From Catellatospora sp. IY07-71 (lineage in GTDB: Bacteria > Actinomycetota > Actinomycetes > Mycobacteriales > Micromonosporaceae), in contig NZ_AP023360.1 in the NCBI RefSeq assembly GCF_018326265.1, forward strand, positions 6,879,001-6,943,000: DNA of 64,000 nucleotides, in the 5' to 3' direction. This document shows, in pieces, positions 40,304-58,729 of this stretch. Position 1 is the first letter of the stretch. Every line of letters starts with the position of its first letter. Position numbers and translations under genes: made by a program. Under the pieces are notes generated by a model. That model did no database searches. It was not told the DNA's origin and was given only the letters and a program-made list of their open reading frames with translations.

Positions 40304-40560
40304 TGCCATCCTCTCGACGACGTTTCGGAGCGGCACGCTAACGCAGAGGCATAGAATTCGCTGTCCCCGACGAAGGCCCACAGGGAGAGCAGGGCCGCCA
40401 CCCATCGAGATGAGCTGATGCGGCCCGGCTGGCACGAGGATTGATTACTCTTCGTGAACCCACGCGGAGCCAGGCGGTGAGTGCGGGCCGCTCTATGACA
40501 TGGGTCACATGTCCGGAAGGCCGTCGCGGCACAGCACCCTGCGGGGACGCGGACGCCAGG

Positions 40561-43088: not shown

Positions 43089-43280
43089 TCCCCATCCGAC
43101 GCAGCGCATCTGAATGATCACCGAGCCGGTGCCCTTTCCTGTGGCACCGTATGCCGTTAGTGTCGACGTCGGCCGTGGCAGCAGACATCGATCTATCGTC
43201 GAGGGCAGCGCCGCGCGCCGCGACTCAGCGAGATTCGCCCAGGTGGATGGCGAAGTTCGCCCGAGCATGGGGAGGAAATG

Positions 43281-43403
43281 ATGGACGAGCAGACCGTGGT
43301 CGCAGACCCGTCCGCCGCCGAGCCGATTGCGGCCGAGGATCTCGTCGAGGCCGACGACCTGATCGAAGAGGTCTCCATCGACGGCATGTGCGGCGTGTAC
43401 TGA
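43281..43403 (+). CDS. mftA: Mycofactocin precursor peptide
   Basis: A 40-residue peptide with an acidic leader (EDLVEADDLIEEVS) and the invariant C terminus IDGMCGVY. In characterised systems the last Val-Tyr is decarboxylated and cross-linked by MftC, then cut out by MftE to make the redox cofactor core. The start is the second of two adjacent ATGs; GGGGAGG lies 5-11 bases upstream. It is followed within 22 bases by mftB. The whole mft operon is intact and in standard order. Confidence 0.97.
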   Translation: MDEQTVVADPSAAEPIAAEDLVEADDLIEEVSIDGMCGVY

Positions 43404-43425
43404 GCCTCGGCTCGGCCGCCACGCC

Positions 43426-43716
43426 ATGCCTACCGCACCGGCTTTCGATCTGGACCGCGCCTGGGATCTGCACCCGCAGGTCTCGGTGCGGCCGGAGCCC
43501 TTCGGCGCGCTGCTGTACCACTTCGGCACCCGGCGCCTGTCCTTCCTGAAGGACCGTGGGCTGGTCGCCGTCGTCCAGGCGCTCGCGACCGCGCCCACCG
43601 CGCGCGCCGCCTGCCAGGCCGTCGGCGCGAGCGCCGACGACGTTCCCCGGTACGCGCGGGCGCTGACGGTGCTCGCCCGCTCCTCCATGCTGATCGAAAG
43701 GCGACCGGCCCCATGA
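43426..43716 (+). CDS. mftB: Mycofactocin peptide chaperone
   Basis: A 96-residue RiPP recognition element protein. The sequence WDLHPQVSVRPEPFGALLYH followed by GTRRLSFLKDRGLVAVVQAL is the family hallmark. It binds the MftA leader and presents it to MftC. The stop overlaps the mftC ATG (ATGA). Confidence 0.95.
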   Translation: MPTAPAFDLDRAWDLHPQVSVRPEPFGALLYHFGTRRLSFLKDRGLVAVVQALATAPTARAACQAVGASADDVPRYARALTVLARSSMLIERRPAP

Positions 43717-44897
43717 CGGCGCAGACCGAACGTCTGGTGGATCTCTTCGAACACGGCCTCGACGCCCCGATCTGCCTGACCTGGGAGCTGACGTACGCCT
43801 GCAACCTGTCCTGCACGCACTGTCTGTCCAGCTCGGGGCGGCGTGACCCGCGGGAGCTGAGCACTGCGGAGGCGAAGGCCGTCATCGACGAACTGGAGGC
43901 CATGCAGGTCTTCTACGTCAACATCGGCGGCGGCGAGCCGACCGTGCGCCCCGACTTCTGGGAGCTGCTCGACTACGCGACCGCCCACCACGTCGGCGTG
44001 AAGTTCTCGACCAACGGGGTGCGGATCGACACCGAGGCAGCCCGGCGGCTGGCCGCCGATGACTACGTCGACGTGCAGATCTCGCTGGACGGCGCGACCG
44101 CGGAGGTCAACGACGCGGTCCGCGGGCCCGGCTCCTACGACACGGCCCTGCGCGCCATGGCCCACCTGGCCGACGCCGGCATGCGCGACTTCAAGCTGTC
44201 GGTGGTGTGCACCCGGCACAACATCCCGCAGCTGGACACGTTCCGGGAGATCGCCGACCGGTACGGCGCCCAGCTGCGGCTGACCCGGCTGCGCCCCTCC
44301 GGCCGCGGCGCCGACGTCTGGGACGAGCTGCACCCGCTGCCGCGCCAGCAGCGCGAGCTGTACGACTGGCTGGTGGCCCACGGCGACAATGTGCTGACCG
44401 GCGACTCGTTCTTCCACCTGTCGGCGTTCGGGAGCGCGCTGCCGGGGCTCAACCTGTGCGGCGCGGGACGGGTGGTGTGCCTGATCGACCCGGTCGGCGA
44501 CGTGTACGCCTGCCCGTTCGCCATCCACGACGAGTTCCTCGCCGGCAACGTGCGCGGCGAGGGTGGTTTCGCCGAGGTCTGGCGCCGGTCACCGCTGTTC
44601 CTCGGGCTGCGCCGGCCGCAGCAGGGCGGGGCGTGCAGCTCCTGCGCGTTCTTCGACACCTGCAAGGGCGGCTGCATGGCCGCCAAGTTCTTCACCGGCC
44701 TGCCGCTGGACGGGCCGGATCCCGAGTGCGTCCAGGGCTACGGCGAGTCGCTGCTCGCGAGCCGGGGCGAGGTCCCCAGGCCGTCCGGCGACCACTCGCA
44801 CCGCACCGCTCCCCCGCGCCCGGTGCCGGTCCGCATCGCCCGGCCGCCGGTCAGCGCGTGCGAGGAGTCGCCGCTGGCCGGCGTGCAGGTGCGCTGA
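43713..44897 (+). CDS. mftC: Mycofactocin radical SAM maturase
   Basis: A 394-residue radical SAM/SPASM enzyme. The cluster motif CNLSCTHC lies at about residues 30-37, GGGEPTVRPDFWELL follows, and the SPASM region has LCGAGRVVCLIDPVGDVYAC and CSSCAFFDTCKGGC. It decarboxylates the MftA C-terminal Tyr and forms the C-C link to Val. Relative to the family a Pro/Arg-rich tail of about 45 residues at the C terminus is extra. It overlaps mftB by four bases and mftD by three. Confidence 0.97.
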   Translation: MTAQTERLVDLFEHGLDAPICLTWELTYACNLSCTHCLSSSGRRDPRELSTAEAKAVIDELEAMQVFYVNIGGGEPTVRPDFWELLDYATAHHVGVKFSTNGVRIDTEAARRLAADDYVDVQISLDGATAEVNDAVRGPGSYDTALRAMAHLADAGMRDFKLSVVCTRHNIPQLDTFREIADRYGAQLRLTRLRPSGRGADVWDELHPLPRQQRELYDWLVAHGDNVLTGDSFFHLSAFGSALPGLNLCGAGRVVCLIDPVGDVYACPFAIHDEFLAGNVRGEGGFAEVWRRSPLFLGLRRPQQGGACSSCAFFDTCKGGCMAAKFFTGLPLDGPDPECVQGYGESLLASRGEVPRPSGDHSHRTAPPRPVPVRIARPPVSACEESPLAGVQVR

Positions 44898-46081
44898 TGT
44901 TCGGCAACCCGTGGTTCGAGACGGTCGCCGAGGCCCAGCGCCGGGCGAGCAAGCGCCTGCCGTACGCGGTGTACGGCGCGCTGCTGGCCGGTTCCGAGCG
45001 CGGCGCCACCGTCGCCGACAACGTCGGCGCGTTCGCCGAGCTGGGCTTCGCGCCCCGGGTGGCGGGCCACCACGCCGTCCGCGAGCTGAGCACGACGGTG
45101 CTCGGGATGCCGACGGCGATGCCGGTCCTGATCTCGCCGACCGGGGTGCAGGCCGTGCATCCCGACGCCGAGGTGGCGGTGGCCCGCGCCGCGGCCGGCC
45201 ACAATGTGATCATGGGCTTGAGCTCGTTCGCGTCCAAGGACGTGGAGGAGGTCGTCGCGGCCAATCCGAACACCGCGTTCCAGCTCTACTGGAGCGGCGA
45301 CCGCGACACGATCCTGCAGCGCATGGAGCGGGCGCGGGCCGCCGGCTGCCGGGCGCTCATCCTGACGCTCGACTGGTCGTTCTCCCACGGCCGCGACTGG
45401 GGCAGCCCCACGATCCCGGACCGGATCGACCTCAGGACCATGCTGAGGATGGCCCCTGACGTGCTGCCGCACCCGCGCTGGCTGTGGCGGTTCGTGCGCG
45501 CGGGCCGGCTGCCCGACCTGACCACCCCGAACATGCGGCAGGCGGGCGGCGGCGTCCCGACCTTCTTCGGCGCGTACGGCGAATGGATGCACACACCCCC
45601 GCCGAGCTGGGTTGACATCGGCTGGCTGGCGAAGGAGTGGGGCGGGCCGTTCCTGCTCAAGGGCGTCGGGCGGGTCGACGACGCCCGGCGCGCGGTCGAC
45701 GCGGGCGTCACCGCGCTGTCCGTGTCCAACCACGGCGGCAACAACCTCGACACCACCCCGGCGACGATCCGGCTGCTGCCCGCGATCGCCGAGGCCGTCG
45801 GCGACCAGATCGAGGTGCTGCTCGACGGCGGGGTCCGGCGCGGCGGCGACGTGGCCAAGGCCCTGGCGCTCGGCGCGCGGGCCGTGCTGATCGGGCGGGC
45901 CTACCTGTGGGGCCTGGCCGCGAACGGGCAGGCCGGCGTCGCGAACGTCCTCGACATCATGCGCGGCGGCCTCGACTCGGCGGTGCTGGGCCTGGGCCAC
46001 GCCTCGGTCGGCGAGCTGGGTCCCGACGACCTGGTGATCCCGGACGGCTTCACGCGTACGGCGGGGGCGGCGGCGCGGTGA
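44897..46081 (+). CDS. mftD: Mycofactocin FMN dehydrogenase MftD
   Basis: A 394-residue FMN-dependent alpha-hydroxy-acid dehydrogenase family member. PVLISPTGVQAVHPDAEVAV, FQLYWSGDRDTILQRMERAR, ALSVSNHGGNNLDTTPATIR (active-site His) and VLLDGGVRRGGDVAKALALG are seen. It oxidises the excised dipeptide-like core to premycofactocin. The start ATG overlaps the mftC stop, and mftE begins within its last codon. Confidence 0.96.
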   Translation: MFGNPWFETVAEAQRRASKRLPYAVYGALLAGSERGATVADNVGAFAELGFAPRVAGHHAVRELSTTVLGMPTAMPVLISPTGVQAVHPDAEVAVARAAAGHNVIMGLSSFASKDVEEVVAANPNTAFQLYWSGDRDTILQRMERARAAGCRALILTLDWSFSHGRDWGSPTIPDRIDLRTMLRMAPDVLPHPRWLWRFVRAGRLPDLTTPNMRQAGGGVPTFFGAYGEWMHTPPPSWVDIGWLAKEWGGPFLLKGVGRVDDARRAVDAGVTALSVSNHGGNNLDTTPATIRLLPAIAEAVGDQIEVLLDGGVRRGGDVAKALALGARAVLIGRAYLWGLAANGQAGVANVLDIMRGGLDSAVLGLGHASVGELGPDDLVIPDGFTRTAGAAAR

Positions 46082-46776
46082 CCGCCTGGCTGAACCGGGC
46101 CGTGTGGCCCGAGGTGCCCGCGGCCGGTGCACTCGTGCTGGTGCCGGTCGGGTCCACCGAGCAGCATGGACCGCACCTGCCGCTCACCACCGACACCGTC
46201 ATCGCCCGCGCCGTCGCCGAGCGGGTCGCGGCCCGCCTGCCGGGGCAGGCCCTGGTCGCGCCCGCGATCGCCTTCGGCGACAGCGGCGAGCACGCGGGCT
46301 TCCCGGGCACGATCTCCATCGGGCACGAGGCGCTGCGGCTGGTGCTCATCGAGACGATGCGCTCGCTGGCGCTGTGGGCCGGGCGGGCGGTCTTCGTCAA
46401 CGGTCACGGCGGCAACACCCGCACCCTGGACGACGCGGTCGCGACCCTGCGGGCGGAGGGCCATCACGTCGCCTGGACACCCTGCGTGTTCCCCGGCGAC
46501 GCGCACGCCGGCCGGTCCGAGACCTCGGTGATGCTGCACCTCGCCCCCGGTGAGGTCCGCCTCGCGGACGCGGCCGCCGGTGACACCCGCCCGCTCGCCG
46601 CGCTGATGCCGCAGCTGGTCCGGAGCGGGGTCCGGTCCGTCGCCCCGAACGGCGTGCTGGGCGACCCCGCCGGCGCCGGGGAGCGGGAGGGCCGTGCCCT
46701 GCTCGACGCGCTGGTCGACGACACGGTCCGCCGGGTCACGGCCTTCACGCCCGACCACCGTGGGCGCCTCGGATGA
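46078..46776 (+). CDS. mftE: Mycofactocin peptidase MftE (creatininase family)
   Basis: A 232-residue creatininase-like metallopeptidase starting at GTG 46078, overlapping the mftD stop (GTGA). VLVPVGSTEQHGPHLPLTTD, AIAFGDSGEHAGFPGTISIG and VFVNGHGGNTRTLDDAVATL carry the metal ligands. It cleaves the modified C-terminal residues off MftA. The stop overlaps the mftF ATG. Confidence 0.96.
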   Translation: MTAWLNRAVWPEVPAAGALVLVPVGSTEQHGPHLPLTTDTVIARAVAERVAARLPGQALVAPAIAFGDSGEHAGFPGTISIGHEALRLVLIETMRSLALWAGRAVFVNGHGGNTRTLDDAVATLRAEGHHVAWTPCVFPGDAHAGRSETSVMLHLAPGEVRLADAAAGDTRPLAALMPQLVRSGVRSVAPNGVLGDPAGAGEREGRALLDALVDDTVRRVTAFTPDHRGRLG

Positions 46777-48233
46777 CCCTGCCCGTGGGATTCGCCGTCG
46801 TCCTCGACGCCCGGACCCGCTTCGTCGACGGCGGCCGTGCCCTGCTCGGCGGGGCGCCCACCACCCACCTGGTGCGGCTGACGCCGCGGGCCCGGAGGCT
46901 GTTCGACGGCCGTACGCTGCGGGTGCGCGACGCGGCGAGCGCCGCGCTCGCCGACCGGCTGCTCGAACTCTCGATCGCGCACCCCGGCGTCGACGAGATC
47001 CCGCCGCACCCGGACCCCCGCTGCACCTACGTCATCCCGGTGCACGACCGGCCGCGGCAGCTCGACCGGCTGCTGGCCGGCATCGGGCCGGGCAACGAGG
47101 TCATCGTCGTGGACGACGCCTCCACCGGCCCGGCGGCGATCGCGGCGGTCGCCGAGCGGCACGGCGCGCGGCTGGTCGCCCTGCCGCGCAACCTCGGCCC
47201 GGCCGGGGCCCGTAACGCCGGTCTGCGGCTGGTGCGCACGCCGTTCGTCGCGTTCGTGGACTCCGACATCGTGCTCGCCGACGACACGGTGCCGACGCTG
47301 CTCAAGCATTTCCACGATCCGCGTACGGCCGTGGCGGTCCCCCGCATCACCGGGCTGCGTACGGCGACCTCGGAAACGTGGATCGGGCGCTACGAGAACA
47401 CCCGCGGCTCGCTGGACCTGGGCGCGCGGCCCGCGTCCGTGCAGCCCGGCTCGTACGTGTCCTGGGTCTCCACCGCCTGCCTCGTCGCGCGGGTCAGCGC
47501 GATCGGCGACGGGTTCGACGAGAGCATGCGGGTCGGCGAGGACGTCGACTTCGGGTGGCGGGCGGTCGCCGCGGGCTGGCGCGTGCGGTTCGAGCCGTCG
47601 GTCGCCGCGGCGCACGAACACCGTGCCCGGTTCGGGGACTGGTTCGTGCGCAAGGTGCAGTACGGCACCGGGGCGCATCCGCTGGCCGTACGGCATCCCC
47701 GGGCGGTCGCCCCGGCGATCATGGCGCCGTGGAGCGCCGCGCTGGCCGTCGCCGTGCTCGCGCAGCGGCGCTGGTCGGTGCCCGCGGCGGCGGCGATCTG
47801 CGCGGTGACCGCGGCCCGGATCTCCCGCAGGCTCGACGTCGAGGGAGCGGCCGGGCTCGGCGTGCGGCTCACCGCCGGCGGCGTGGTCGGCACCCTGCTG
47901 CAGACCGGCGGCCTCATCACCCGGCACTGGTGGCCGGTCACCGCCGTCGGCTGCCTCTTCTCGCGGCGGGTACGCCGCGCGGCCGCGGTCGCGGCGGTGG
48001 CCGATGTCCTGCTGGAGTACGCGAACAGCCGGGTCGACCTGGACCTTCCCCGCTACTGGCTCGGCCACCGGCTCGACGACGTCGCCTACGGCAGCGGGGT
48101 GTGGCTGTCGGCCATCCGGGGGCGGTCGGCCGCGTCCCTGCTGCCGCAGCTGCGGAGGCCGTCCACCAGCCGCCGCAGCGGGCGGCGGAATGGGGCGGTC
48201 AGCCGAGGCCCAGCGCCGGGAGGCACTCCTTGA
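46773..48233 (+). CDS. mftF: Mycofactocin glycosyltransferase
   Basis: A 486-residue GT2 enzyme. CTYVIPVHDRPRQLDRLLAG, EVIVVDDASTG, LGPAGARNAGL, the DxD-like FVDSDIVL and the WVSTACLVARVSAIGDGFDE/GEDVDFGWR segments are typical. Hydrophobic helices in the C-terminal third fit membrane association. It adds the oligoglucose tail to premycofactocin. It ends the mft operon; the 3' end overlaps the convergent acetyltransferase gene by 35 bases. mftG and mftR are absent. Confidence 0.95.
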   Translation: MTLPVGFAVVLDARTRFVDGGRALLGGAPTTHLVRLTPRARRLFDGRTLRVRDAASAALADRLLELSIAHPGVDEIPPHPDPRCTYVIPVHDRPRQLDRLLAGIGPGNEVIVVDDASTGPAAIAAVAERHGARLVALPRNLGPAGARNAGLRLVRTPFVAFVDSDIVLADDTVPTLLKHFHDPRTAVAVPRITGLRTATSETWIGRYENTRGSLDLGARPASVQPGSYVSWVSTACLVARVSAIGDGFDESMRVGEDVDFGWRAVAAGWRVRFEPSVAAAHEHRARFGDWFVRKVQYGTGAHPLAVRHPRAVAPAIMAPWSAALAVAVLAQRRWSVPAAAAICAVTAARISRRLDVEGAAGLGVRLTAGGVVGTLLQTGGLITRHWWPVTAVGCLFSRRVRRAAAVAAVADVLLEYANSRVDLDLPRYWLGHRLDDVAYGSGVWLSAIRGRSAASLLPQLRRPSTSRRSGRRNGAVSRGPAPGGTP

Positions 48234-48843
48234 CGCCGGTCAGCTCGATGTCGTCGCGCCGGACCTGCTCCCAGGCGTCCCGGGTCAGCACCCAGCGCTG
48301 GATCTGCGCGACCTCGCCGCGGCGGGTGTCCCAGGTGGTGCCGTTCTTCACGTAACCCAGCGCCTGCGAAACCTTGTTGGAAGCGTGATTGTCGGTGAAC
48401 GCGTCGCTTTCGGCCTCGCGTGCGTTCAGCCCGGCGAACGCCAGATGCAGCACGGCCGCGCGCATCTCCCGGCCGATCCCGCTCCCGCGCCGGCCCGGCG
48501 CCAGCCAGGAGAAGGTGGAGACCGTCCCGAACCTCTTGAAGTCGACGCCGCGCAGGTCCTGCATGCCGATCGGCTCACCGTCCAGCAGCACGACGAAGTA
48601 CAGCCGCCAGAAGCTCTCCTCCACGCGGGCACGCCCCGCCCAGATGGCCCGCAGCCACCGCCACTCGCGGTCGGGACTGTCCGCGTAAAGCGACATCGGA
48701 TCGTCGAACGGCCAGGGCGCGACATCGGCGACACCGGCGCGGACGATCGGCACCAGCCGCTCCAGCAGCTCATCCGTGGCCGCGGCCAGCGTCAGCCGCG
48801 GCGTGCGCACCTCAAGGTTCAGCGGAGGGTACGTGTGGATCAC
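48199..48843 (-). CDS. GNAT family N-acetyltransferase (RimJ/RimL-like)
   Basis: A 214-residue acetyltransferase. The start is VRTPRLTLAAATDELLERL in style, the acetyl-CoA loop is LAPGRRGSGIGREMRAAVLH (about residues 112-131) and SNKVSQALGYVKNG is the typical C-terminal motif. Substrate unknown. It is convergent with mftF, overlapping it by 35 bases, and 52 bases from the next same-strand gene's stop. Confidence 0.92.
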   Translation of the reverse strand: MIHTYPPLNLEVRTPRLTLAAATDELLERLVPIVRAGVADVAPWPFDDPMSLYADSPDREWRWLRAIWAGRARVEESFWRLYFVVLLDGEPIGMQDLRGVDFKRFGTVSTFSWLAPGRRGSGIGREMRAAVLHLAFAGLNAREAESDAFTDNHASNKVSQALGYVKNGTTWDTRRGEVAQIQRWVLTRDAWEQVRRDDIELTGVKECLPALGLG

Positions 48844-48895
48844 ACGTGAACCGTATGCGGACCGGACGCCGTCCGCAACCGACGCTCCATTCGGC

Positions 48896-50719
48896 TCAGT
48901 GAATCGTCCGGGTGACCGGCACCCTGGTGGCGGTGAAGGAGACCGTCATCCCGCTCACCCATACCGCCCACACGATCTGCAGATCGCTGCGGCCTTTCCC
49001 GGGTGTCTCCAGCAGGATGTCGGGCAACCCGGCGAGGGTGCACCCAGCGGTGAAAGCGGAGAGGACCTCCTCCGTCAGCCGATCGTGGAGCACGACCACC
49101 AGCTGGCCAGCGCGATCCTGCCACTCGGGCGCGGCGCGTACGGTCAGCCGCGGCCGCATCGAGGCTCCCGGCTCGTACGTGCCGCTGACCGAGATCGACA
49201 GCTCCGGACCCGACTGCGCCGACTCGCGGATCGGGCCGCACTGCCAGCACTTGCCGGCGATGCGCTGCCACTGCTCCAGTTCGGGGTCGCTGTACCGGAA
49301 GACGCCGAGCTCCGACCCGCAGCGCGGGCAGGAGCCCTCGACGCCGTGGCTGTCCAGCCGGTGGAATGCGTGCAGGGCAAGGTACATGTCGTTTCCCGGG
49401 ACCAGGCCCGCCGCCGCGGCGAACGCCTCGTCCCAGCGCCCGACCGCCTTGTCCAGCCGCGACATGAGGCGGCCGGGATCCTGCCAGATCCGGTGGTCGA
49501 CGTTCTCGTGGAGCAGCTCGACCGCGCTCCAGGCGGCATCCTCTACCTGCTCGCGGGCGCGGTCGAGCGCGTCCAGCGCGTCCTCCAGCTCATCGTTCAT
49601 CGACCTGTCGCTGACCTTCAGCAGCACCCGTCGGATGCGGTCGGCTCTCCGGCTGTGGCCGAGCGCCTCCCGGCACCTGTCGAGCAGCGGCGCGGCAAAG
49701 TCGCGGCAGTCCGTGGCGACGTCGGCGGGCGTGTCCCCGGCCGCCGGTGTGCTGGGCGCGAAGCGCAGCGCCGGATCGCCGACCAGCGCGATGCCGTAGC
49801 CGGTGGGAATCTGGTGGCCCTGGTTGAGCCGCTGGACGGCGGCACCGAGACTCAGCCCTTCGGCCAGCGAGCGCGCACACAGCCCCACGGCGTCGAAGCG
49901 GGGGTCGAGGTCGCCGACCATCGCGATCACCCCGACCGGCCAGCCGCTCAGCGCACCGGCGCAGAGGCTGTTGGTGGACGAGAACTCGTTCGTCGCGGCG
50001 TCGAACGTCATGCAGCCCATCAGGGCGACGACGGCGGCCCGCAGCGACGCCGCCGGAACGGCGGTGCGCAGGTACTGCGTCATACACCGGCAGACGCCCT
50101 GGTCCGGGTCGCAGCCGTCGGCCAGTGGCCGTCCGGCGGAGTGCTCCGGCCCGGTGGCGCCGCAGATGAGATGCGAGCCGAGGCCCATGTGGCCCAGGTC
50201 GGAGTGGCCGACGATGCCCAGCATCCGCCAGGGCGAGGCCAGGACCGAGCTCAGCCGCTCGGGGCGGGCGGCGGCGAGGTCGTCGGTCTTCCCGCAGAAT
50301 CCACCGATCGAATCGATGACGGCGTCGTCACCCGGCAGGATGCGGGTGTGCGCGAGCCGGAGCTTCGACGCCTGGAACTCCGCGTCCGCAGCGTCCTCGA
50401 CGAGCACCAGTCCGAACGGGATCCCCGACCGCAGCGACGAAGCCACCCATTTGCGGGCCAGCTCCGCCGAGAATCCGTGCCGCCATGCGAACAGCAGCAC
50501 CGAGGAGGGCGTGCATTCGTCCGGCAGCCGGCAATCCGAGGCGAGCACGCGCACCACCGGGCGGCCGAGGTCGTCGCCCAGCTGCCGGGCGGTCTCCAGC
50601 AGAGCCTCGTCCGCGCAGGCGATGACGTCGTTCGACAGATCCGGCGCGGATGCATCCGGCCGCAGCGGCAGACTCTGATACGCGTCGATGATGTCGGAAG
50701 GCGCGGGAACGTCTGACAT
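48896..50719 (-). CDS. Caspase-fold protease-like protein with zinc ribbon
   Basis: A 607-residue protein. The region of about residues 90-310 reads as a caspase-fold peptidase of the gingipain (C25)/CHAT kind: a His motif in LGIVGHSDLGHMGLGSHL (His 172), a Cys in ALMGCMTF (Cys 236) and the closing GYGIALVGDPALRFAP, common at the end of C25 domains. A helical part follows (DALDRAREQVEDAAWSAVEL), then a zinc ribbon CPRCG...CWQCG at about residues 463-495 and a beta-rich C terminus of about 110 residues. No signal peptide, so cytoplasmic. Activity is plausible but unproven. It lies between the mft and NRPS genes, divergent from the latter. Start ATG 50719. Confidence 0.65.
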   Translation of the reverse strand: MSDVPAPSDIIDAYQSLPLRPDASAPDLSNDVIACADEALLETARQLGDDLGRPVVRVLASDCRLPDECTPSSVLLFAWRHGFSAELARKWVASSLRSGIPFGLVLVEDAADAEFQASKLRLAHTRILPGDDAVIDSIGGFCGKTDDLAAARPERLSSVLASPWRMLGIVGHSDLGHMGLGSHLICGATGPEHSAGRPLADGCDPDQGVCRCMTQYLRTAVPAASLRAAVVALMGCMTFDAATNEFSSTNSLCAGALSGWPVGVIAMVGDLDPRFDAVGLCARSLAEGLSLGAAVQRLNQGHQIPTGYGIALVGDPALRFAPSTPAAGDTPADVATDCRDFAAPLLDRCREALGHSRRADRIRRVLLKVSDRSMNDELEDALDALDRAREQVEDAAWSAVELLHENVDHRIWQDPGRLMSRLDKAVGRWDEAFAAAAGLVPGNDMYLALHAFHRLDSHGVEGSCPRCGSELGVFRYSDPELEQWQRIAGKCWQCGPIRESAQSGPELSISVSGTYEPGASMRPRLTVRAAPEWQDRAGQLVVVLHDRLTEEVLSAFTAGCTLAGLPDILLETPGKGRSDLQIVWAVWVSGMTVSFTATRVPVTRTIH

Positions 50720-51047
50720 GGATTCCAATCCTCACCCGGCAGCACGTGGTCGAAGCCGGGCCTACTGTATAGCCAAGCAGCGCGGGCGGTCGGCGCACCC
50801 GTTGCGGCCTGACGGTTTGCCGTCCAGCCGGGAAAATCAACACGACCACCGGCGCGTTGCCGAGCGTGATTGTTGCTTTGTTTCACTGAGAGTAATCGAT
50901 GACTCGGGTGTCCAATGAGTCTCGATCTTAGGTGGGTCAGCATGTAGGTTGTTCCCCGTGGCCACGCGCAGCGGAGCGCGGCGGAACCGTGCGCCTGCGC
51001 GTCGGTGAGCTGCACTTGACCATCGAGCCAATGGGGGGACCGACGCC
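50720..51047. other. 328-base divergent promoter region before the NRPS cluster
   Basis: No protein-like frame. An AT-richer stretch at about 50866-50960 (TTGTTGCTTTGTTTC and following) probably holds the promoter of the amidinotransferase/NRPS operon, but I could not settle on a -35/-10 pair. A GGGGGGA ribosome site lies just before the ATG at 51048. Confidence 0.5.
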
Positions 51048-52136
51048 ATGCGTGATTCCGATGTCGCGACCGAGGTGCACTGCCCTGTTTCTTGTCACAA
51101 CGAATGGGATCCGCTCGAAGAAGTGATCGTCGGCATCGTCGACAACGCCCACTTCCCGCCGTGGCATGTCGCCGTCGGCGCGCCGCTGTCGGCCGCGCAG
51201 CGCGAGGTCTTCCAGCAGCGGGCCGGGCAGCCGTTCCCGGCCGACCAGGTGGCCGCCGCACGCGACGAGCTGGACCAGTTCGTGGACATCCTCGAGCGCG
51301 AGGGCGTCACGGTGCGCCGGCCGGAGCCGCGCGATCACTCCGCCTCCTACGGCGGCCCCGGCTGGCAGAGCACGGGGCTGTACGACGCGATGCCGCGCGA
51401 CCTGCTGCTCGTCGTCGGCAACGACGTCATCGAGGCGCCGATGGCCTGGCGCTCGCGTCACCACTCGGCCTCGGCGTACCGGCCGCTGCTCAAGGAGTAT
51501 TTCCGGCAGGGGGCTCGCTGGACCTCGCCGCCGAAGCCCGAGCTGTCCGACGAGCTCTACCACGCGGACTGGACGGACCAGCCGGACGGTGAGCCGTTCC
51601 GTTCGGTCATCACGGAGTTCGAGCCGACCTTCGACGCCGCCGACTTCGTCCGTTGTGGACGCGACATCTTCGGCCAGCGCAGCCACGTCACGAACGGCAT
51701 GGGCATCGAGTGGCTGCGCCGCCACCTCGGCGACGAGTACCGCGTCCACGAGGTGGTGCTGAACGACGACCACCCGATGCACATCGACGCGAGCCTGATG
51801 CCGCTGGCCCCCGGCAAGCTGCTGATCCAGCCGGAGCGGGTGCCGCAGGTGCCCGACCTGTTCAAAGACTGGGAGGTGCGGGCCGCCCCCGCGCCGGTCA
51901 TCCCCGACGGCCACCCGCTCTACATGACCAGCAAGTGGATCAACATGAACGTGCTGATGATCGATGAGCAGCGCATGGTCGTCGAGGCGCAGGACGAGCC
52001 GATGATGCGGCTGGCCGAGAGCTGGGGCATCGCGCCGATCCCCTGCCCGTTCCGCAACTTCAACAGCTTCGGCGGTTCGTTCCACTGCGCGACGGTCGAC
52101 GTCCGCCGCCGCGGTGAGCTGCGCTCCTACCTGTGA
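51048..52136 (+). CDS. Amidinotransferase (arginine:glycine amidinotransferase-like)
   Basis: A 362-residue enzyme with the AGAT catalytic triad: Asp/Glu region TFDAADFVRCGRDIFGQRSH (about residues 196-215), His in LNDDHPMHIDASLMPL (about 243) and the nucleophile Cys in NSFGGSFHCATVDVRRRGE (Cys 347). It moves an amidino group from arginine to an amine, giving a guanidino product such as guanidinoacetate, as CyrA does in cylindrospermopsin biosynthesis. Its stop overlaps the NRPS start (GTGA), so it belongs to the biosynthetic operon. The acceptor amine is unknown. Confidence 0.92.
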   Translation: MRDSDVATEVHCPVSCHNEWDPLEEVIVGIVDNAHFPPWHVAVGAPLSAAQREVFQQRAGQPFPADQVAAARDELDQFVDILEREGVTVRRPEPRDHSASYGGPGWQSTGLYDAMPRDLLLVVGNDVIEAPMAWRSRHHSASAYRPLLKEYFRQGARWTSPPKPELSDELYHADWTDQPDGEPFRSVITEFEPTFDAADFVRCGRDIFGQRSHVTNGMGIEWLRRHLGDEYRVHEVVLNDDHPMHIDASLMPLAPGKLLIQPERVPQVPDLFKDWEVRAAPAPVIPDGHPLYMTSKWINMNVLMIDEQRMVVEAQDEPMMRLAESWGIAPIPCPFRNFNSFGGSFHCATVDVRRRGELRSYL

Positions 52137-55100
52137 ACCCGGATGTCGCGGCCCTCGCGCCCAGCATGGAGAGGCAGGACGACATGACCGAGCACCTGGT
52201 GCACCGCCTGATCGAGGCGCAGGCCGCCCGGACTCCGGACGCGGTCGCGGTCGCCTGGGACGGCGGCAGCCACACCTACCGCGAGCTCGACCAGCGGGCG
52301 GCGTTCCTGGCCGGGCTGCTGGCCGGGCACGGCGTGCGTCCTGAGCGCCTGGTCGGCGTGAGCATGGAGCCGTCACCGCTGCTCCTGGTGGCGATGCTGG
52401 CGATCTGGAAGGCCGGCGGGGCGTACGTGCCCATCGACTCGTCGCTGCCGCGCGACGTCGCCGAGGGCATGCTCACCGACGCCGGGGTCACCCTGCTCAT
52501 CGCCAACGGGCCCGTCGCGGTGGATCTCGCCGACGTGCGGACGATCGACCTCGACGGCCTCGACCTGTCGGGTCCCCCGGCGGTCACGCCCTCGGTCGAC
52601 ACGGTCCCGGCGAACCTCGCATACTGCGTGTTCACCTCGGGCTCGACCGGCAAGCCCAAGCTGGTCGCGGTCAACCACGCCAGCTTCGCCAACCACGGGC
52701 TGGCGCTGCGCGAGCAGCTGTCGCTGGGCCCGCAGGACAGGGTGCTGCAGTCCACGGCGATGGCCTTCGACGCCGCGCTGGAGGAGATCCTGCCGGGCTG
52801 GCTGGCCGGTGGCGCGGTGGTCATGCCGGCGAGCCGCAAGTTCACCAGCCAGGAGCTGACCGATCTCATCGAGCGGCTCTCGGTGACGATGGTGAGCCTG
52901 CCCAGCGCCTACTGGCACCTGTGGGTCGACGACCTCACGGCCGGCACGGTGCACCTGCCGCCGACGCTGCGCACGGTGTTCATCGGGGGCGACAAGATCC
53001 TCGTCGACAAGCTGGAGGCGTGGTATCGCGTCCCCGGCGCGGACCGGATCAACTGGGTGTCGGACTACGGGCCGACCGAGACCTCGATCAGTGTCGCGCT
53101 GCACCATCCCGCCCGCGACGGCATCGGCAGCTCCGACGGCTCCGGCTACGCCCTGGTGTCGCTCGGCCGGCCGTTCGCGCGGGCGGCGCTCTACATCCTC
53201 GACGAGGACCTGCGCCCGGTGCCCGAAGGTGACTCCGGCGACCTGTGGGTGGGCGGCCCGCCGGTGACGCGCGGCTACTACGGCGCTCCCGCGATGACCG
53301 CCGACCGCTTCCGTCCCGACCCGCAGGGCCCGCCCGGTGCGCGCATGTACCGCACCGGCGACCGGGCGGCCCGGGCGGCCGACGGCACGATCTCCTTCCT
53401 GGGCCGCTCCGACCGCCAGGTGAAGATCCGCGGCCAGCGGGTCGAGCTCGGGCAGGTGGAGAGCGCGCTGCACCAGCTCGACGGCGTGCAGGACGCCGTC
53501 GCGATCGTCGTCGACGACCCGCCCCGGGGTTCGTTCCTCGTCGCGTACGTCGAGGCCGGGCCCGACGTGTCGGAGGGCGAGCTCCGGGCGGGGCTCGCCG
53601 GGCGGCTGCCGGACGCGATGCTGCCGAAGACGATCGTGCTGCTGGAGAAGATCCCGCGCTCGCCGCTGAACGGCAAGGTGTCCCGCGCCGCGCTGCCGCC
53701 GGTGGCGCGTACGCGATCCGCGCGCGTCGAGGCCGCGGCGATGACGGCCCTCGAACGCGCCGTCGCGATGGTCGTCGCCGACGTGCTCGACGCTCCGGTG
53801 ACCGACCGCCACGAGGACTTCTTCACCATCGGCGGCGACTCGCTGCGGGGCATGCAGGTGCTGAGCCGGATCACCGAGGTGACGGGGGTGGCCCTGACGT
53901 TCGAGCAGCTGCGCGCGGCTCCCCATGTGGCCGGCCTCGCCGCGCTCGTGACGGAGCAGCGCGGCAGCGGCGCCGCCGGCCGGGCGATCGTGCCGGCGTC
54001 GGCCCGCGGCGAGTGGCAGCCCGCCTCGCGCGGGCAGCAGGCGTTGTGGTTTCTCGACCAGGTGCTCCGCGGCGAGCCTGTGTACTCGATTCCCGTCTGC
54101 TACCGGATCCGCGGACCGTTCGACGTCGCGCGCCTGGACGCCGCCCTGACCACCATCGTCGCCCGGCACGAGGCCCTGCGGACGGTGCTGGTGCGGCAGG
54201 GCGGAAAGGTCTCGCAGCACGTCCGGCCCGCCGGACCGGTCCGGACCGAGGTCGTCCGCGCGGACGGCTTCGCCGACGCCGCCGACCGCGCACAGCAGGC
54301 GGCTCGGGAGCCGTTCGTGCTGAGCGAGGGGCCCCTGCTGCGCTCAGCCGCCTTCCAGATCGCCGACGAAGAGTGGCTGTGGCTGCTCAACGTGCACCAC
54401 GCGGTGTTCGACGCCTGGTCGCTGGCCGTGCTCTGGCGTGAGCTGACGGTGCTCTACCAGGGCGGTTCGCTGCCGGACGGCACCGTGCAGTTCGCCGACT
54501 ACGTGCTGTGGCAGCAACGCTGGCTGCAGGAGGCGGAGGCGGCGAAGCAACGGTCCTACTGGCAGGGCAGGCTCGCCGACGCCCCGGCGCCGCTGCGGCT
54601 GGGCACGGCCCGCGCCGAGGGGGCCCGCGTGGGCACGGACGGCTTCGCGGTGCAGCTGCCGCCCGGGTTCCTGGACACCGCGGCCGTCGAGCGCGTGGCG
54701 CAGGGTTGCCGGTCGACCCCGTTCGCCGTCCTGCTCTCGGCCCTGTTGCTCACGCTGCGGCGGACGACCGGGGCGGACGACCTGGTCGTCGGCGTTCCGG
54801 TCGCCTGCCGCAACCGCCCGGGCAGCGAGCACATCATCGGCTATCTGGTGAACACGGTCGCGGTGCGCACCCGGCTGGCGGGCGGCATGACGTTCCGCGA
54901 GGTGGTCGCCGCCGCCGACGTGGCGACGGCCGAGGCGCTGACGCACCAGGAGCTGCCGTTCGCCGATGCGGTCGAAGGCGTCGCACGCAGCGCCCGGCCC
55001 GGTGAGAACCCGGTCTTCCAGGCGATGTTCGCGTTCCAGTCCACGCCGCTGGACGGCCTGGACGGCATCACGGGGCTCGACGTCGCCGAGCACTTCGTCC

Positions 55101-55309
55101 ACCCCGGCACGGCGCAGGCGGCGCTGCGGTGGACGGCCCGCCAGGAGCCGGCCGGCCTGGTCGGCGAGATCGAGTACGCCGCCGACCGCTTCGACCGCAC
55201 GTCCGCCGCGCACTGGCAGGCCGAGCTGGCGGCGACGCTGGACGCGGCGCTGAACGACCCTGACCTGCCGATCGACAAGATCGGCGGCCGAGGCGAGGGG
55301 ATGCTGTGA
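52133..55309 (+). CDS. Nonribosomal peptide synthetase, A-PCP-C
   Basis: A 1058-residue NRPS. The adenylation domain covers about residues 20-520 (A3 core FTSGSTGKPK, A5 YGPTETS, A7 YRTGDRA, A10 NGKVSR). A carrier domain has the phosphopantetheine site FFTIGGDSLRG (Ser 570). A condensation domain runs about 625-1050 with the intact active site HHAVFDAWS. Reading the specificity pocket by eye gives DAESFGDIS plus Lys. Glu at the third and Asp at the seventh position suggest a basic substrate (Lys- or Arg-like; I recall DAES for a bacitracin Lys module). The C domain comes last, so it must accept its second substrate from a separate carrier. Start GTG 52133. Confidence 0.95.
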   Translation: MNPDVAALAPSMERQDDMTEHLVHRLIEAQAARTPDAVAVAWDGGSHTYRELDQRAAFLAGLLAGHGVRPERLVGVSMEPSPLLLVAMLAIWKAGGAYVPIDSSLPRDVAEGMLTDAGVTLLIANGPVAVDLADVRTIDLDGLDLSGPPAVTPSVDTVPANLAYCVFTSGSTGKPKLVAVNHASFANHGLALREQLSLGPQDRVLQSTAMAFDAALEEILPGWLAGGAVVMPASRKFTSQELTDLIERLSVTMVSLPSAYWHLWVDDLTAGTVHLPPTLRTVFIGGDKILVDKLEAWYRVPGADRINWVSDYGPTETSISVALHHPARDGIGSSDGSGYALVSLGRPFARAALYILDEDLRPVPEGDSGDLWVGGPPVTRGYYGAPAMTADRFRPDPQGPPGARMYRTGDRAARAADGTISFLGRSDRQVKIRGQRVELGQVESALHQLDGVQDAVAIVVDDPPRGSFLVAYVEAGPDVSEGELRAGLAGRLPDAMLPKTIVLLEKIPRSPLNGKVSRAALPPVARTRSARVEAAAMTALERAVAMVVADVLDAPVTDRHEDFFTIGGDSLRGMQVLSRITEVTGVALTFEQLRAAPHVAGLAALVTEQRGSGAAGRAIVPASARGEWQPASRGQQALWFLDQVLRGEPVYSIPVCYRIRGPFDVARLDAALTTIVARHEALRTVLVRQGGKVSQHVRPAGPVRTEVVRADGFADAADRAQQAAREPFVLSEGPLLRSAAFQIADEEWLWLLNVHHAVFDAWSLAVLWRELTVLYQGGSLPDGTVQFADYVLWQQRWLQEAEAAKQRSYWQGRLADAPAPLRLGTARAEGARVGTDGFAVQLPPGFLDTAAVERVAQGCRSTPFAVLLSALLLTLRRTTGADDLVVGVPVACRNRPGSEHIIGYLVNTVAVRTRLAGGMTFREVVAAADVATAEALTHQELPFADAVEGVARSARPGENPVFQAMFAFQSTPLDGLDGITGLDVAEHFVHPGTAQAALRWTARQEPAGLVGEIEYAADRFDRTSAAHWQAELAATLDAALNDPDLPIDKIGGRGEGML

Positions 55310-56874
55310 GCGGCCCGATGTCATTGATCTCGCGGTTCGAGCGACAGGCCGGATCGACGCCGCACGCGGTCGCGCTCGACGACGACGGCCGGCTCACCAC
55401 CTACGCGCAGCTCGACCAGTGGTCGGACGCCGTCTGCGCCGACCTGCTGGCCGCGGGCGCCGTGCCGGGCGGTCTCGTCGGCATCCTGCTCCCGCGCGAT
55501 TCCCGCTGGATCGCCGCCATCCTCGGCGTGCTGAAGGCGGGCTGCGGTTACGTGCCCCTGGATCCGCTGTATCCGCAGGCGCGCCTGTCCATGGTGATGG
55601 AGGACGCGGGGCTGACGCTGATCCTCGGCGACGCGCCGGGGATCGATCCGGGATCGAGCCGGCGGCGCGTGGACATGCCGAGCGCGGGCGCCCGCAGGCG
55701 GCCGGCGTCCCGCCCGCCGCTGGACCTCGCCTCACCCGCATACGTCATCTACACGTCGGGTTCGAGCGGCCGGCCGAAGGGCGTCCCGATGCAGCATCGC
55801 CAGGTGCTCGGGCTCATGGACGCCGTGGAAGCACGCATGCGCTTCACGCCCACCGACGTGTGGTCGCTGTTCCACTCGTTCGCCTTCGACTTCTCGGTGT
55901 TCGAGATGTGGGGTCCCCTGCTCACCGGTGCCCGCATCGTCACCGTCCCGCAGACCGCGCGGCTGGACCCGGCGCGCTTCGTCGAGTTCCTCCGGGGCAC
56001 GGGGGTCACCGTGCTGAGCATGGTGCCGACGGTCTTCCGGCACCTCGTCGCGTCGGGTGCCGGGCCGCAGGACGAGCTGGCGGTGCAGCAGGTCGTCTTC
56101 GCGGGGGAGGCGGTCGACCCCGGCTGCGTCTCGGGATGGCTGTCGGCGCTGCCGGCCGGGAAGCGACCGGCAGCCCTGAACATGTACGGGATCACCGAGG
56201 GGACGGTGCACTCGACGCTGCGGGAGATGACCGCCGTCGACTTCACGAGGACCGAGCCCGGCACGTTGATCGGCACGCCGCTGGCGCACTCCCGGATGCG
56301 GCTCGTGGACCAGGACCTGCGGCCGGTCGAGAAGGGCGAACCCGGCGAGATCCTGCTGGACGGGGTGGGCGTGACCGACGGCTACCTCGGCCGCCCGGAG
56401 CTCAACCGGGAGCGCTTCGTCGACCTGCCGTCGGCCGACGGGTCGACGGCACGCTGCTTCCGCACCGGCGACCTCGCCAGCTGGGACGAGGACACGGGCA
56501 GCTACGTATACCACGGACGCATCGACGACCAGGTGAAGGTGAACGGCCACCGCATCGAACTCGGCGAGGTGGAGGCGTCGCTGCGGGCCTGTCCGGGCGT
56601 GTTCGACGCCGCCGTCGCGCTGCACAGCCCCCCGGGCGCCGCGCCCAGCCTCCTCGCCAACGTCATCGCCGAGGCGCCCACGGCAGGCGCCGCGGCTCCG
56701 GAGGACCCCGCCGCGTCGAGCCGCACGGTCCGGGACATCAGGAAGGCTCTGGCGACGAGGCTTCCCCGCTACATGATCCCGCAGCACATCCAGCTGGTGC
56801 CGAGCCTGCCGCGCACGGAGTCGGGCAAGATCAGCCGGAAGGGACTCGTGCCGCCCGCGTCCGGGGTGAGCTAG
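55306..56874 (+). CDS. Free-standing adenylation domain
   Basis: A 522-residue amino acid adenylation enzyme with all core motifs (IYTSGSSGRPKGVP, SFAFDFSVFEMWGPL, NMYGITEGTVH, FRTGDLA, NGHRIELGEVE, ESGKISRKGL). There is no carrier domain, so it must load a separate one, probably the protein at 58730. The pocket read by eye is DFFSVAMVH plus Lys, nearest to the Thr-type code DFWNIGMVHK with changes at four positions. A Thr-like or modified hydroxy/amino acid is a guess. It overlaps the NRPS gene by four bases. Confidence 0.93.
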   Translation: MSGPMSLISRFERQAGSTPHAVALDDDGRLTTYAQLDQWSDAVCADLLAAGAVPGGLVGILLPRDSRWIAAILGVLKAGCGYVPLDPLYPQARLSMVMEDAGLTLILGDAPGIDPGSSRRRVDMPSAGARRRPASRPPLDLASPAYVIYTSGSSGRPKGVPMQHRQVLGLMDAVEARMRFTPTDVWSLFHSFAFDFSVFEMWGPLLTGARIVTVPQTARLDPARFVEFLRGTGVTVLSMVPTVFRHLVASGAGPQDELAVQQVVFAGEAVDPGCVSGWLSALPAGKRPAALNMYGITEGTVHSTLREMTAVDFTRTEPGTLIGTPLAHSRMRLVDQDLRPVEKGEPGEILLDGVGVTDGYLGRPELNRERFVDLPSADGSTARCFRTGDLASWDEDTGSYVYHGRIDDQVKVNGHRIELGEVEASLRACPGVFDAAVALHSPPGAAPSLLANVIAEAPTAGAAAPEDPAASSRTVRDIRKALATRLPRYMIPQHIQLVPSLPRTESGKISRKGLVPPASGVS

Positions 56875-56966
56875 CAGCCTCCACCTTGGACGCGGTTGCC
56901 GCCATAGAACGATGTCGGTACGTTCGAACAAACGCCCAGATCCACATCCCAACGTCGGGGGAGCTT

Positions 56967-57785
56967 GTGTCACGTCTCGAAGGCAAGGTCGCTTTCATCA
57001 CCGGGATCGGTCGCGGACAGGGCCGCAGCCATGCCGTCCGGCTGGCCGAGGAGGGTGCGGACATCATCGGGGTCGACATCTGCCGTGACTTCGACTCCGC
57101 GCCCTATCCGATGTCGTCGAAGGAGGACCTCGCCGAAACGGTGCGGCAGGTCGAGGCGCTGGGCCGGCGGGTGGTCGCCCGGGTCGCCGACGTGCGGGAC
57201 GCGGTGGGGCTGCGCAGCGCCGTGGAGGAGGGCGTCGACCAGCTCGGCCGCCTGGACTTCGCCGTCGCCAACGCCGGCATCAGCACCGCCCAGTTCCGGA
57301 TGACCACGCTGGAGGAGGACATCCAGGCGTGGAACGACGTCATCGACGTCAACCTGACCGGCGTGTGGAACACCGCGCAGGCGGCCATCCCCTACATCCT
57401 CGCCGGCGGGCGCGGCGGCTCGATCATCCTCATCGGCTCGACGGCGGGTCTGCGCGGCGCGGGCGCGGGCCCGTACACCGCGGCCAAGCACGGGGTCGTC
57501 GGCATCATGCGCGGCCTGGCCAACGAACTCGCCGAGGACAACATCCGAGTGAACGTCGTGCACCCGACCGCGGTCAACACCATGATGGCGGTCAACCCTG
57601 GCATGCAGGCGTTCCTGGCCTCGCAGGTCGCCAACGGCATCCACTCGCGCAACGCGATGCCGGTCGAGCTGCTGGAGCCGGCCGACATCAGCGCCACGGT
57701 CGCGTTCCTGTGTTCCGACGAGTCCCGTTACATCACCGGCACGAACGTCCCGGTCGACGCGGGGTTCGTGAACCGCGTCGACTGA
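56967..57785 (+). CDS. Mycofactocin-coupled short-chain dehydrogenase
   Basis: A 272-residue SDR. TGIGRGQGRSHAVRLAEEGA is the nucleotide motif, followed by the long insertion VDICRDFDSAPYPMSSKEDL, which marks the mycofactocin-coupled SDR subfamily (tightly bound NAD recycled by mycofactocin instead of exchanged). NAGIS, the catalytic Ser in ILIGSTAG and YTAAKHG (Tyr, Lys) are intact. It oxidises an alcohol or reduces a carbonyl. The start is GTG 56967 with GGGGGA upstream; a 92-base gap with possible own promoter separates it from the A-domain gene. A complete mft operon lies 9 kb upstream, consistent with cofactor supply. Confidence 0.9.
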   Translation: MSRLEGKVAFITGIGRGQGRSHAVRLAEEGADIIGVDICRDFDSAPYPMSSKEDLAETVRQVEALGRRVVARVADVRDAVGLRSAVEEGVDQLGRLDFAVANAGISTAQFRMTTLEEDIQAWNDVIDVNLTGVWNTAQAAIPYILAGGRGGSIILIGSTAGLRGAGAGPYTAAKHGVVGIMRGLANELAEDNIRVNVVHPTAVNTMMAVNPGMQAFLASQVANGIHSRNAMPVELLEPADISATVAFLCSDESRYITGTNVPVDAGFVNRVD

Positions 57786-57796
57786 CGGCGACCCGG

Positions 57797-58555
57797 TCAG
57801 CCGGCCGTGGCTCCACCCGGCCGGCTGCCGGCGCCCGCCACGATCTCCAGGACCGGGGCCGGGTTCTCGAACGGGAAGAAGTGGCCGCCGGGCACCACGT
57901 GCTCGGCCGTCCCGGCGTCCGTCCACAGCGCCCAGGTGTCGCCGTGGAACTCCGCCGCCGGGTCGTCGACACCGGCGATGGTGATGATCGGAATGTCGAG
58001 GCGGTCGGCGGCCGTCGGCGGCTCGGCCCGGCGGCAGGAATCGGCCAGCGCCATGTCGGCTCGCAGGCACGGCAGGAACAGCTCGATCGCCTCGGCACTC
58101 AGCACGTCGGCCGGGGTGCCGCCGAAGTCGCGCAACGCGTCGAGCAGGGTCTCGTCGTCGGCCTCGGCGAGCCCGGAGTCGAAGACGAGGTGCGGTGCCG
58201 CCGAACCGGCGGCGACGAACAGGCTCAGCGGCCGGGAACGCCGCCGCAGCCGCAAGGCCACCTCACGGCCCAGCAACGCTCCCGCGCTGTGCCCGAAGAT
58301 GATGTACGGGCGTTCGGCATACTCGTCGATTGCGGCGGCGATCTCGTCGGCCAGTGGCTCGACCGACGACACCGCGGGCTCGGTGTAGCGGCTCTCCCGT
58401 CCGGGAGTGTGGATCGCGACCAGCTCGAGCCCGGAGGGCCGGAACGGAAGCCACCGCCGGAACAACGACGGGCCGGAGCCCGACGGCGGGAAGGCGAACA
58501 CGAGCAAACCGGTTGTCGGCCCCGAGATCACCCGAAGCAGTCGATCGGTTGACAA
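57797..58555 (-). CDS. Type II thioesterase
   Basis: A 252-residue alpha/beta-hydrolase thioesterase of the SrfAD/GrsT type. LLVFAFPPSGSGPSLFRRWL carries the N-terminal signature, the nucleophile is in IIFGHSAGALLG (Ser about 90), with Asp in IAGVDDPAAEF and His in VPGGHFFPFE. It removes misloaded groups from carrier proteins, or here could release the product since no type I thioesterase is seen. The start is TTG 58555 with GAGGGGAG upstream. It is convergent with the SDR and divergent from the carrier-protein gene. Confidence 0.93.
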   Translation of the reverse strand: MSTDRLLRVISGPTTGLLVFAFPPSGSGPSLFRRWLPFRPSGLELVAIHTPGRESRYTEPAVSSVEPLADEIAAAIDEYAERPYIIFGHSAGALLGREVALRLRRRSRPLSLFVAAGSAAPHLVFDSGLAEADDETLLDALRDFGGTPADVLSAEAIELFLPCLRADMALADSCRRAEPPTAADRLDIPIITIAGVDDPAAEFHGDTWALWTDAGTAEHVVPGGHFFPFENPAPVLEIVAGAGSRPGGATAG

Positions 58556-58729
58556 CTCGCCTACACTCCCCTCATGCCGGCGGATCGAGCCGGTGCCAGC
58601 CTATCCGGCAGCGGCAGGCGCCGCCCACCAGTGGTGCCGGCCATACGCAGTCCGAACGCGTGGCTCGGGACGCCCGTGGCCGGCCGTCGGGCGTCGCCGG
58701 TGGACACGACATACGGGAGGATGCCGTCC

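Follow-up and report, generated by a model that had tools for sequence, protein, structure and literature searches.

What might the genes for mycofactocin (mft), a rare redox cofactor known from catabolism and above all from mycobacterial alcohol (ethanol) metabolism, be doing beside an assembly line for a secondary metabolite? This question is raised by a stretch of 64,000 nucleotides from Catellatospora sp. IY07-71 (NZ_AP023360.1, 6,879,001 to 6,943,000), hereafter the window, in which a mycofactocin operon is followed by nonribosomal peptide synthetase (NRPS) genes and by a short-chain dehydrogenase/reductase (SDR) of the mycofactocin-coupled type, SDR1. An earlier note on this DNA had proposed that the cofactor may serve an oxidation step in a metabolite. 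As argued below from sequence comparisons, it is likely that the mft genes serve the hybrid pathway of NRPS and polyketide synthase (PKS) encoded by the genomic island in which they lie.

The mft operon and its candidate client enzymes

The claim of the earlier note that mftA-F is complete was borne out, as six mft genes occur in order on the forward strand between 43278 and 48233, all above the equivalog cut-offs of NCBIfam. These are mftA for the mycofactocin precursor of 41 aa, with the C-terminus IDGMCGVY (43278..43403; TIGR03969, 44.7 bits against a cut-off of 25), mftB for the chaperone (43426..43716; TIGR03967, 109.2 against 33), mftC for the radical SAM maturase (43713..44897; TIGR03962, 650.2 against 265), mftD for the pre-mycofactocin synthase (44897..46081, with its ATG at 44897; TIGR03966, 670.5 against 470.85), mftE for the creatininase-type peptidase (46078..46776; TIGR03964, 305.5 against 172) and mftF for the glycosyltransferase (46773..48233; TIGR03965, 396.3 against 280). 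Neither mftG nor mftR lies inside the operon, no genome-wide search having been made for MftR.

Regarding the possible users of the cofactor, SDR1 (56967..57785, forward strand) reaches 363.9 bits with the mycofactocin-coupled model TIGR03971 (cut-off 300) and starts 92 bp behind the gene of a free-standing adenylation (A) domain on the same strand. A second mycofactocin-coupled enzyme, SDR2, is encoded outside the window (genome positions 6961864-6962685; TIGR04504, 370.4 bits against a cut-off of 250), directly behind the gene of a TauD-type dioxygenase at the far end of the same cluster. Both carry at the NAD site a 12-residue insertion, which is lacking in the three further SDRs from this genome included in the alignment, and the Tyr and Lys of the Tyr-x-x-x-Lys motif are aligned in all eight rows of that alignment, from which the rows L076, L077 and L078 were left out. 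The mycofactocin-type SDR with an insertion previously pointed out at 56967 is thus confirmed by both profile and alignment. In nine mycobacterial SDR relatives, such an insertion buries the NAD in crystal structures, according to the available part of the source (PMC5264612).

The genome (a single contig of 8.6 Mb) holds 62 matches to TIGR03971, among which only SDR1 exceeds the cut-off. The six SDRs ranking next below SDR1 and SDR2 are better matches to other families and do not reach the mycofactocin cut-offs; no alcohol dehydrogenase of TIGR03989 scores above its cut-off in the genome (best match 262.2 bits against 440) and TIGR04266 has no match there. With all NCBIfam models run on 8 of the 62 SDR matches, no third mycofactocin-type dehydrogenase was found besides SDR1 and SDR2. 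As far as the accessible text of one paper goes, mft genes are never present without a nicotinoprotein client, and a single client tends to adjoin the cofactor genes (PMC3023750). The location of both SDRs inside the cluster, together with the failure to find another client, is therefore counted in favour of the mft genes serving the pathway.

The NRPS-PKS cluster and the proposed oxidations

The NRPS operon opens with a gene for an arginine:amine amidinotransferase of the AGAT family (51048..52136, forward strand), which has no Pfam or NCBIfam match and was recognised with phmmer by its full-length similarity to human AGAT (E 8.7e-123, residues 10-362), and also to SxtG and HsvA. It is followed, with 4-base overlaps, by the genes of an NRPS composed of A, peptidyl carrier protein (PCP) and condensation (C) domains (52133..55309, forward strand; PF00501, PF00550 and PF00668) and of the free-standing A domain (55306..56874, forward strand; TIGR01733, 370.2 bits against 317.4). 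Beyond SDR1 lie genes for a thioesterase (57797..58555, reverse strand; PF00975, 119.6 bits), a free-standing PCP (58721..58975, forward strand; PF00550, 71.5 bits, along with other carrier-protein matches; a start at 58574 would give a longer open frame), the two halves of an ABC exporter (58970..60736 and 60733..62481, both on the reverse strand; PF00664 and PF00005 in each) and an enzyme of the fatty acid desaturase family (62739..63704, forward strand; PF00487, 110.3 bits). The latter gene overlaps that of a pyridoxal phosphate (PLP) enzyme starting at 63701, which was ruled out as a member of GntC (250.1 bits against a cut-off of 415) or VioD (213.8 bits against 390.9) by scores below both cut-offs and stands as a relative only.

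The cluster continues for about 20 kb past the end of the window, up to genome position 6,962,685 (stretches L009 and L152). In this outer part, Pfam identifies two A-PCP proteins, one protein with A and C domains, one C protein, a protein combining ketosynthase (KS), acyltransferase (AT), acyl carrier protein, aminotransferase and C domains, a methyltransferase and the TauD-type dioxygenase; two further genes resemble the thioesterase of the window and a 69-aa protein looks like MbtH by eye. What had been described as an NRPS cluster does contain NRPS genes, and with A, C, PCP, KS and AT domains at one locus the description is corrected to a hybrid NRPS-PKS cluster that is about 20 kb longer than the window could reveal. 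The combination of the AGAT, desaturase-family and GntC/VioD-like genes suggests a guanidine amino acid in the product, which is, judging from these domains, probably a guanidine-containing hybrid nonribosomal peptide-polyketide.

A cluster of this kind could in principle decorate mycofactocin itself, considering that a single island contains the mft genes, the assembly line and the two exporter halves. The amidinotransferase, the PKS, the aminotransferase and the several A domains imply instead a scaffold of its own, the glycosylation of the cofactor is accounted for by an MftF that passes its own model, and SDR1 and SDR2 would be superfluous; such a decoration is thus regarded as most improbable.

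If the mft genes do serve the NRPS-PKS pathway, both SDRs would hold NAD permanently and oxidise hydroxyls of assembly-line intermediates to ketones, the hydride passing from the SDR-bound NAD to mycofactocin, by which the reversible alcohol oxidation would be pulled forward. SDR1 would most likely oxidise the amino acid that the lone A domain loads, at its hydroxyl, and SDR2 a hydroxyl set by the adjacent dioxygenase, with which SDR2 would form a hydroxylate-then-oxidise pair; these exact substrates are put forward tentatively and may well prove to be others. The pocket of the lone A domain looks threonine-like, as read by eye at the GrsA positions, a reading of little weight, and its best solved match after chains of LgrA is 5n9w, a threonine enzyme. 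As for the energetics, the potential of NAD is -320 mV. A value of -255 mV is given for premycofactocin in the available part of PMC11778925, and mycofactocin as the acceptor would favour the ketone where free NAD(P)H tends to reverse the reaction.

The island, its relatives and the case against

As delimited by gene comparison, the cluster belongs to a lineage-specific island of about 46 kb, from genome position 6,922,278 to about 6,968,000, the window containing its left half with the mft operon included. The left flank was compared in seven of the ten genus-mates and the right flank in three. Urease genes are found in the left flank of all seven; in five, the flank is conserved from the urease operon to a methyltransferase gene (42216..43013, reverse strand; 91-94% identity), which marks the left boundary from outside the island, and is then followed by two different genes, the second of which has its ortholog in the present genome at 4.94 Mb, 2 Mb away. 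The methyltransferase gene and its neighbours are not in the 20 kb stretches of the other two (G089 and G090). Such a conserved flank followed by divergent genes places the start of the lineage-specific segment between the methyltransferase gene and mftA. On the other side, SDR2 is followed by three genes, the last encoding a protein of 1014 aa that resembles a regulator by eye, and then by the common right flank, whose four-gene block is conserved elsewhere in two of the three genus-mates. A simple insertion could not be shown by the empty-site test, the flanks not being adjacent in genus-mates and only the left breakpoint being sharp: in G084, for instance, ureC is found at 8.45 Mb, far from the ligase of the right flank at 6.15 and 1.79 Mb. 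Flanks that are not adjacent in relatives thus indicate a rearranged region rather than a clean insertion.

In the sister species G083, the whole block from mftA to SDR2 is collinear at 85-100% identity, flanks included, though there two extra genes separate the regulator-like gene from the right flank. Between the two species, dN/dS amounts to 0.039 for SDR1, 0.19 for SDR2, 0.18 for the A-PCP-C gene, 0.16-0.29 for mftC to mftF and 0.46 for the short mftA. Few genomes of the family have MftC (12 of 354; 3 of 11 in the genus), compared with 202 of 397 genomes sampled from the order. The lineage-specific segment common to this genome and G083, the low dN/dS of SDR1 and the rarity of MftC are counted in favour of the mft genes belonging to the pathway. 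This segment, along with the other mft-PKS clusters described below, also supports the earlier claim that cofactor and pathway genes travel together.

Relatives of the amidinotransferase are more widespread, with matches in 50 of the 354 family genomes. Among the 10 neighbourhoods read, out of 49 other family genomes with a match, G083 alone has the whole block and the other nine have neither mft nor SDR1, apart from a single weak mftF match (31%) in G278. NRPS matches occur in eight of these nine, the ninth being an 11.5 kb contig (G108), and a desaturase gene in four; the A-PCP-C module is common to G102 and G064 at 53-54% identity. Amidinotransferase and NRPS genes without mft mean that the guanidine portion of the pathway also occurs independently of mycofactocin. 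Of note, an AGAT gene and a desaturase-family gene stand beside larger NRPS genes in G102, G064, G245 and G209 (L042-L049), all free of mft, forming a separate family of guanidine-peptide clusters. The synteny asked about in the earlier note was accordingly not unique to the strain, but among the ten amidinotransferase neighbourhoods it extended to just one sister species, and the ten remaining MftC loci of the family all lack it.

Could the neighbourhood be devoid of function, mft serving general alcohol oxidation as in mycobacteria and having come to lie next to the NRPS-PKS genes in a variable part of the genome, with SDR1 and SDR2 as ordinary hitch-hikers? In the MftC tree, the proteins of this genome and G083 nest with four loci of the genus g4 (99 SH-aLRT), apart from those of the genus-mate G091 and of G067, which are long branches of unsure placement. 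This grouping suggests a separate recruitment of mft, and it can also be held to favour a functionless neighbourhood, as can the surroundings of three of the four g4 loci (G046, G060 and G018), whose P450 and dehydrogenase-like genes have a catabolic look by eye, the separate mft and NRPS operons and the position of the segment at a rearrangement breakpoint. Against this stands the fact that the genome searches described above yielded no further mycofactocin-type dehydrogenase that could fill a catabolic role. Besides, assembly-line genes lie within about 10 kb of mftC at 4 of the 12 family loci and at 1 of 40 in other families (p 0.008 by Fisher's test), or 3 of 11 against 1 of 40 once the sisters are merged (p 0.028), these p values being post hoc, with loci treated as independent and screened by slightly different methods (motif and blastp in the family, tblastn outside). 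Of the 40 outside loci, all picked from the MftC matches listed, 20 belong to f15 or f13 and 20 to other families. In the present genome, the stretches up to 10 kb from a multi-carrier cluster make up about 3% of the sequence and those up to 10 kb from any carrier domain 6% (base rates from 43 of the 45 carrier matches), which sets the likewise post hoc probability of finding at least 3 of 11 by chance at 0.004 or 0.025, respectively. A neighbourhood without function is consequently considered unlikely.

Another possibility is that SDR1 and SDR2 do belong to the pathway but work independently of mycofactocin, with free NAD(P) or another acceptor, the mft genes being there for something else. 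Ten family genomes, this one included, hold a strong relative of SDR1, and five of the ten have no MftC match: four of these (G094, G096, G160 and G205) encode TIGR03971 SDRs above the cut-off of 300, and the fifth, G059, has one just under it at 298.2 bits. In G094, a single contig, the SDR reaches 401 bits and NRPS genes lie about 14 kb away (L075 / L261:14999-15832, L262), its neighbours being thioesterase-like and aminotransferase-like by eye. TIGR03971 SDRs are thus not exclusive to mycofactocin genomes in this family, and membership alone is no proof of mycofactocin dependence. The NAD-burying insertion known from the mycobacterial relatives (PMC5264612, available part) is nevertheless present in both SDR1 and SDR2, the mft genes accompany the two enzymes and the searches turned up no other client, so that independence from the cofactor appears improbable, even more so than a functionless neighbourhood.

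The SDRs of MftC-less genomes, that of G094 in particular, also weigh against a role of mycofactocin in the pathway, as do several further observations. The mft-NRPS form is seen in two sister species only. Among the 40 mft loci sampled outside the family, NRPS genes lie within about 10 kb at one and a KS at none. Around the best 79 of at least 540 SDR loci, 12 of which have MftC in the stretch, no condensation domain was found nearby, and KS hits amount to one of 216 bits at the edge of a Frankia torreyi locus and a weak one of 94 bits in L246; so few KS matches and the want of condensation domains indicate that the arrangement is rare. At the locus itself, the mft operon is split from the NRPS operon by two genes on the opposite strand, and their upstream regions have no common word above shuffles. 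In addition, no MftG, the partner that re-oxidises the cofactor in many though not all mycofactocin systems, exceeds the cut-off anywhere in the genome (best TIGR04542 match 22.1 bits against 400), which leaves the re-oxidation of mycofactocin unexplained. With all this taken into account, service of the mft genes to the pathway is still deemed likely.

The two genes between the operons encode a GNAT acetyltransferase (48199..48843, reverse strand; PF13302, 48.4 bits), with 99.5-100% identity in G083, and a 610-aa protein (48896..50728, reverse strand) without Pfam or NCBIfam match, whose membership in the pathway is unsure. This 610-aa protein has two Cys-x2-Cys pairs in its C-terminal third, and its dN is second only to that of mftA among the genes compared between the sister species. 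As for the left flank, the methyltransferase at 42216-43013 was rejected as a candidate MftM, as it matches 19 NCBIfam families, none of them MftM, and its gene also occurs in genus-mates without MftC. Further upstream, a 1225-aa gene with a weak TafC match (36758-40435, reverse strand) has no match in the flank of G083, nor any at 45% identity or more in the stretches compared from the genus-mates. An Rfam match to 5_ureB_sRNA (30911-31206, reverse strand; 55.9 bits), antisense to ureC, probably reflects conserved urease coding sequence.

Recurrence with PKS clusters, known systems and meaning

The association of mft with assembly lines is encountered again with PKS genes, which is likewise counted in favour of mft serving the pathway. 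In the genus-mate G091, mftD, mftF, a TIGR04504 SDR and mftE lie on one side and mftA-B-C between PKS genes, all on one contig that also encodes a TIGR03971 SDR (347.3 bits) and a luciferase-like monooxygenase. G067, of the genus g4, has mftA-B-C-E-F, a TIGR03971 SDR (337.8 bits), a similar monooxygenase and PKS genes, mftD not being in the stretches read; its SDR and monooxygenase are 61% and 67% identical to those of G091, and other accessory genes are common to both. On plasmids, type I PKS genes stand beside mft in 5 of the 10 records with MftC, all from Streptomyces: NBC_00557, SAT1, NBC_00334, S. yangpuensis CM253 and S. lavendulae BP39, the last being an unannotated record in which the PKS was found by tblastn. 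NBC_00334 has the accessory set of G091 at 51-72% identity, CM253 and BP39 resemble one cluster, and the modular PKS of CM253 starts some 9 kb past mftE. For NBC_00080, NBC_00564 and the Tsukamurella, Mycolicibacterium and Thermomicrobium plasmids, the genes listed in the stretches examined include neither PKS nor NRPS genes. On the Streptomyces linear plasmids (L249, L250, L251, L252, L253 and L257), the mft operons found beside or between type I PKS genes carry genes for FAD-dependent or FadH/OYE enzymes and electron-transfer flavoprotein (ETF), with no mftD annotated. Separately, in another family of the order (G666, L112), an mft operon comes with a TIGR04504-like SDR 77% identical to SDR2, and its mftD end adjoins an NRPS gene for an A domain, ahead of which lie genes showing C and PCP motifs; it is a possible further mft-NRPS case.

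Compared with these mft-PKS loci (the five Streptomyces plasmids, G091 and G067), the present one likewise has mft beside or between assembly-line genes, and a mycofactocin-coupled SDR adjoins mft and PKS in G091, G067, NBC_00557, NBC_00334 and SAT1 as it does here. The PKSs of those loci are modular and of type I, with putative beta-amino-acid (macrolactam-type) starter genes in G091 and the annotated plasmids, whereas the island of Catellatospora sp. IY07-71 combines NRPS-PKS and guanidine genes with mftD, a gene missing from the annotation of all four annotated plasmid operons. With the mycobacterial mycofactocin system, it has in common the full set of six biosynthetic genes as well as a TIGR03971 SDR bearing an insertion at the NAD site; it differs in that MftG is missing from the genome and mftR from the operon, and in that, rather than many mycofactocin-type SDRs, two were found, both in the NRPS-PKS cluster. 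In aminocoumarin biosynthesis, the SDRs NovJ/NovK oxidise carrier-bound beta-hydroxy amino acids with free NADP. The arrangement there is similar, an SDR lying beside an adenylation/PCP pair with a proposed alcohol-to-ketone step on the carrier, whereas the family model of the present SDRs implies captive NAD and mycofactocin. Regarding the guanidine genes, GntB of the guanitoxin pathway is a desaturase-family enzyme, and the PLP enzyme encoded here beside a desaturase-family gene matches the models of both guanitoxin GntC, an L-enduracididine cyclase, and viomycin VioD, though under both cut-offs. The mft loci of Saccharopolyspora are treated as cofactor clusters in the available part of PMC11162802. 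No report of mycofactocin use in natural-product assembly, the mft-PKS cases included, was found in our searches of the open-access literature; the parts are known, and the combination of mft, mycofactocin-type SDRs and NRPS-PKS was not met with in these searches.

Beyond this locus, we lean, with slightly less assurance than for the island itself, towards mycofactocin being a dedicated cofactor of assembly-line biosynthesis in several lineages. The mft genes would have been recruited separately into the NRPS-PKS cluster described here, into a PKS family common to two genera of the family and a Streptomyces plasmid, and into further plasmid PKS clusters, with captive-NAD SDRs and mycofactocin driving alcohol-to-ketone steps that free NAD would not hold at the ketone. 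If this is true, mft genes in a cluster would predict a specific redox step, such a cluster should stall when expressed in a foreign host without mft, and deleting a gene would be a simple test of the role of the cofactor outside catabolism. It also provides a search rule, namely mft lying no more than 10-20 kb from NRPS or PKS genes, which already points to named Streptomyces strains.

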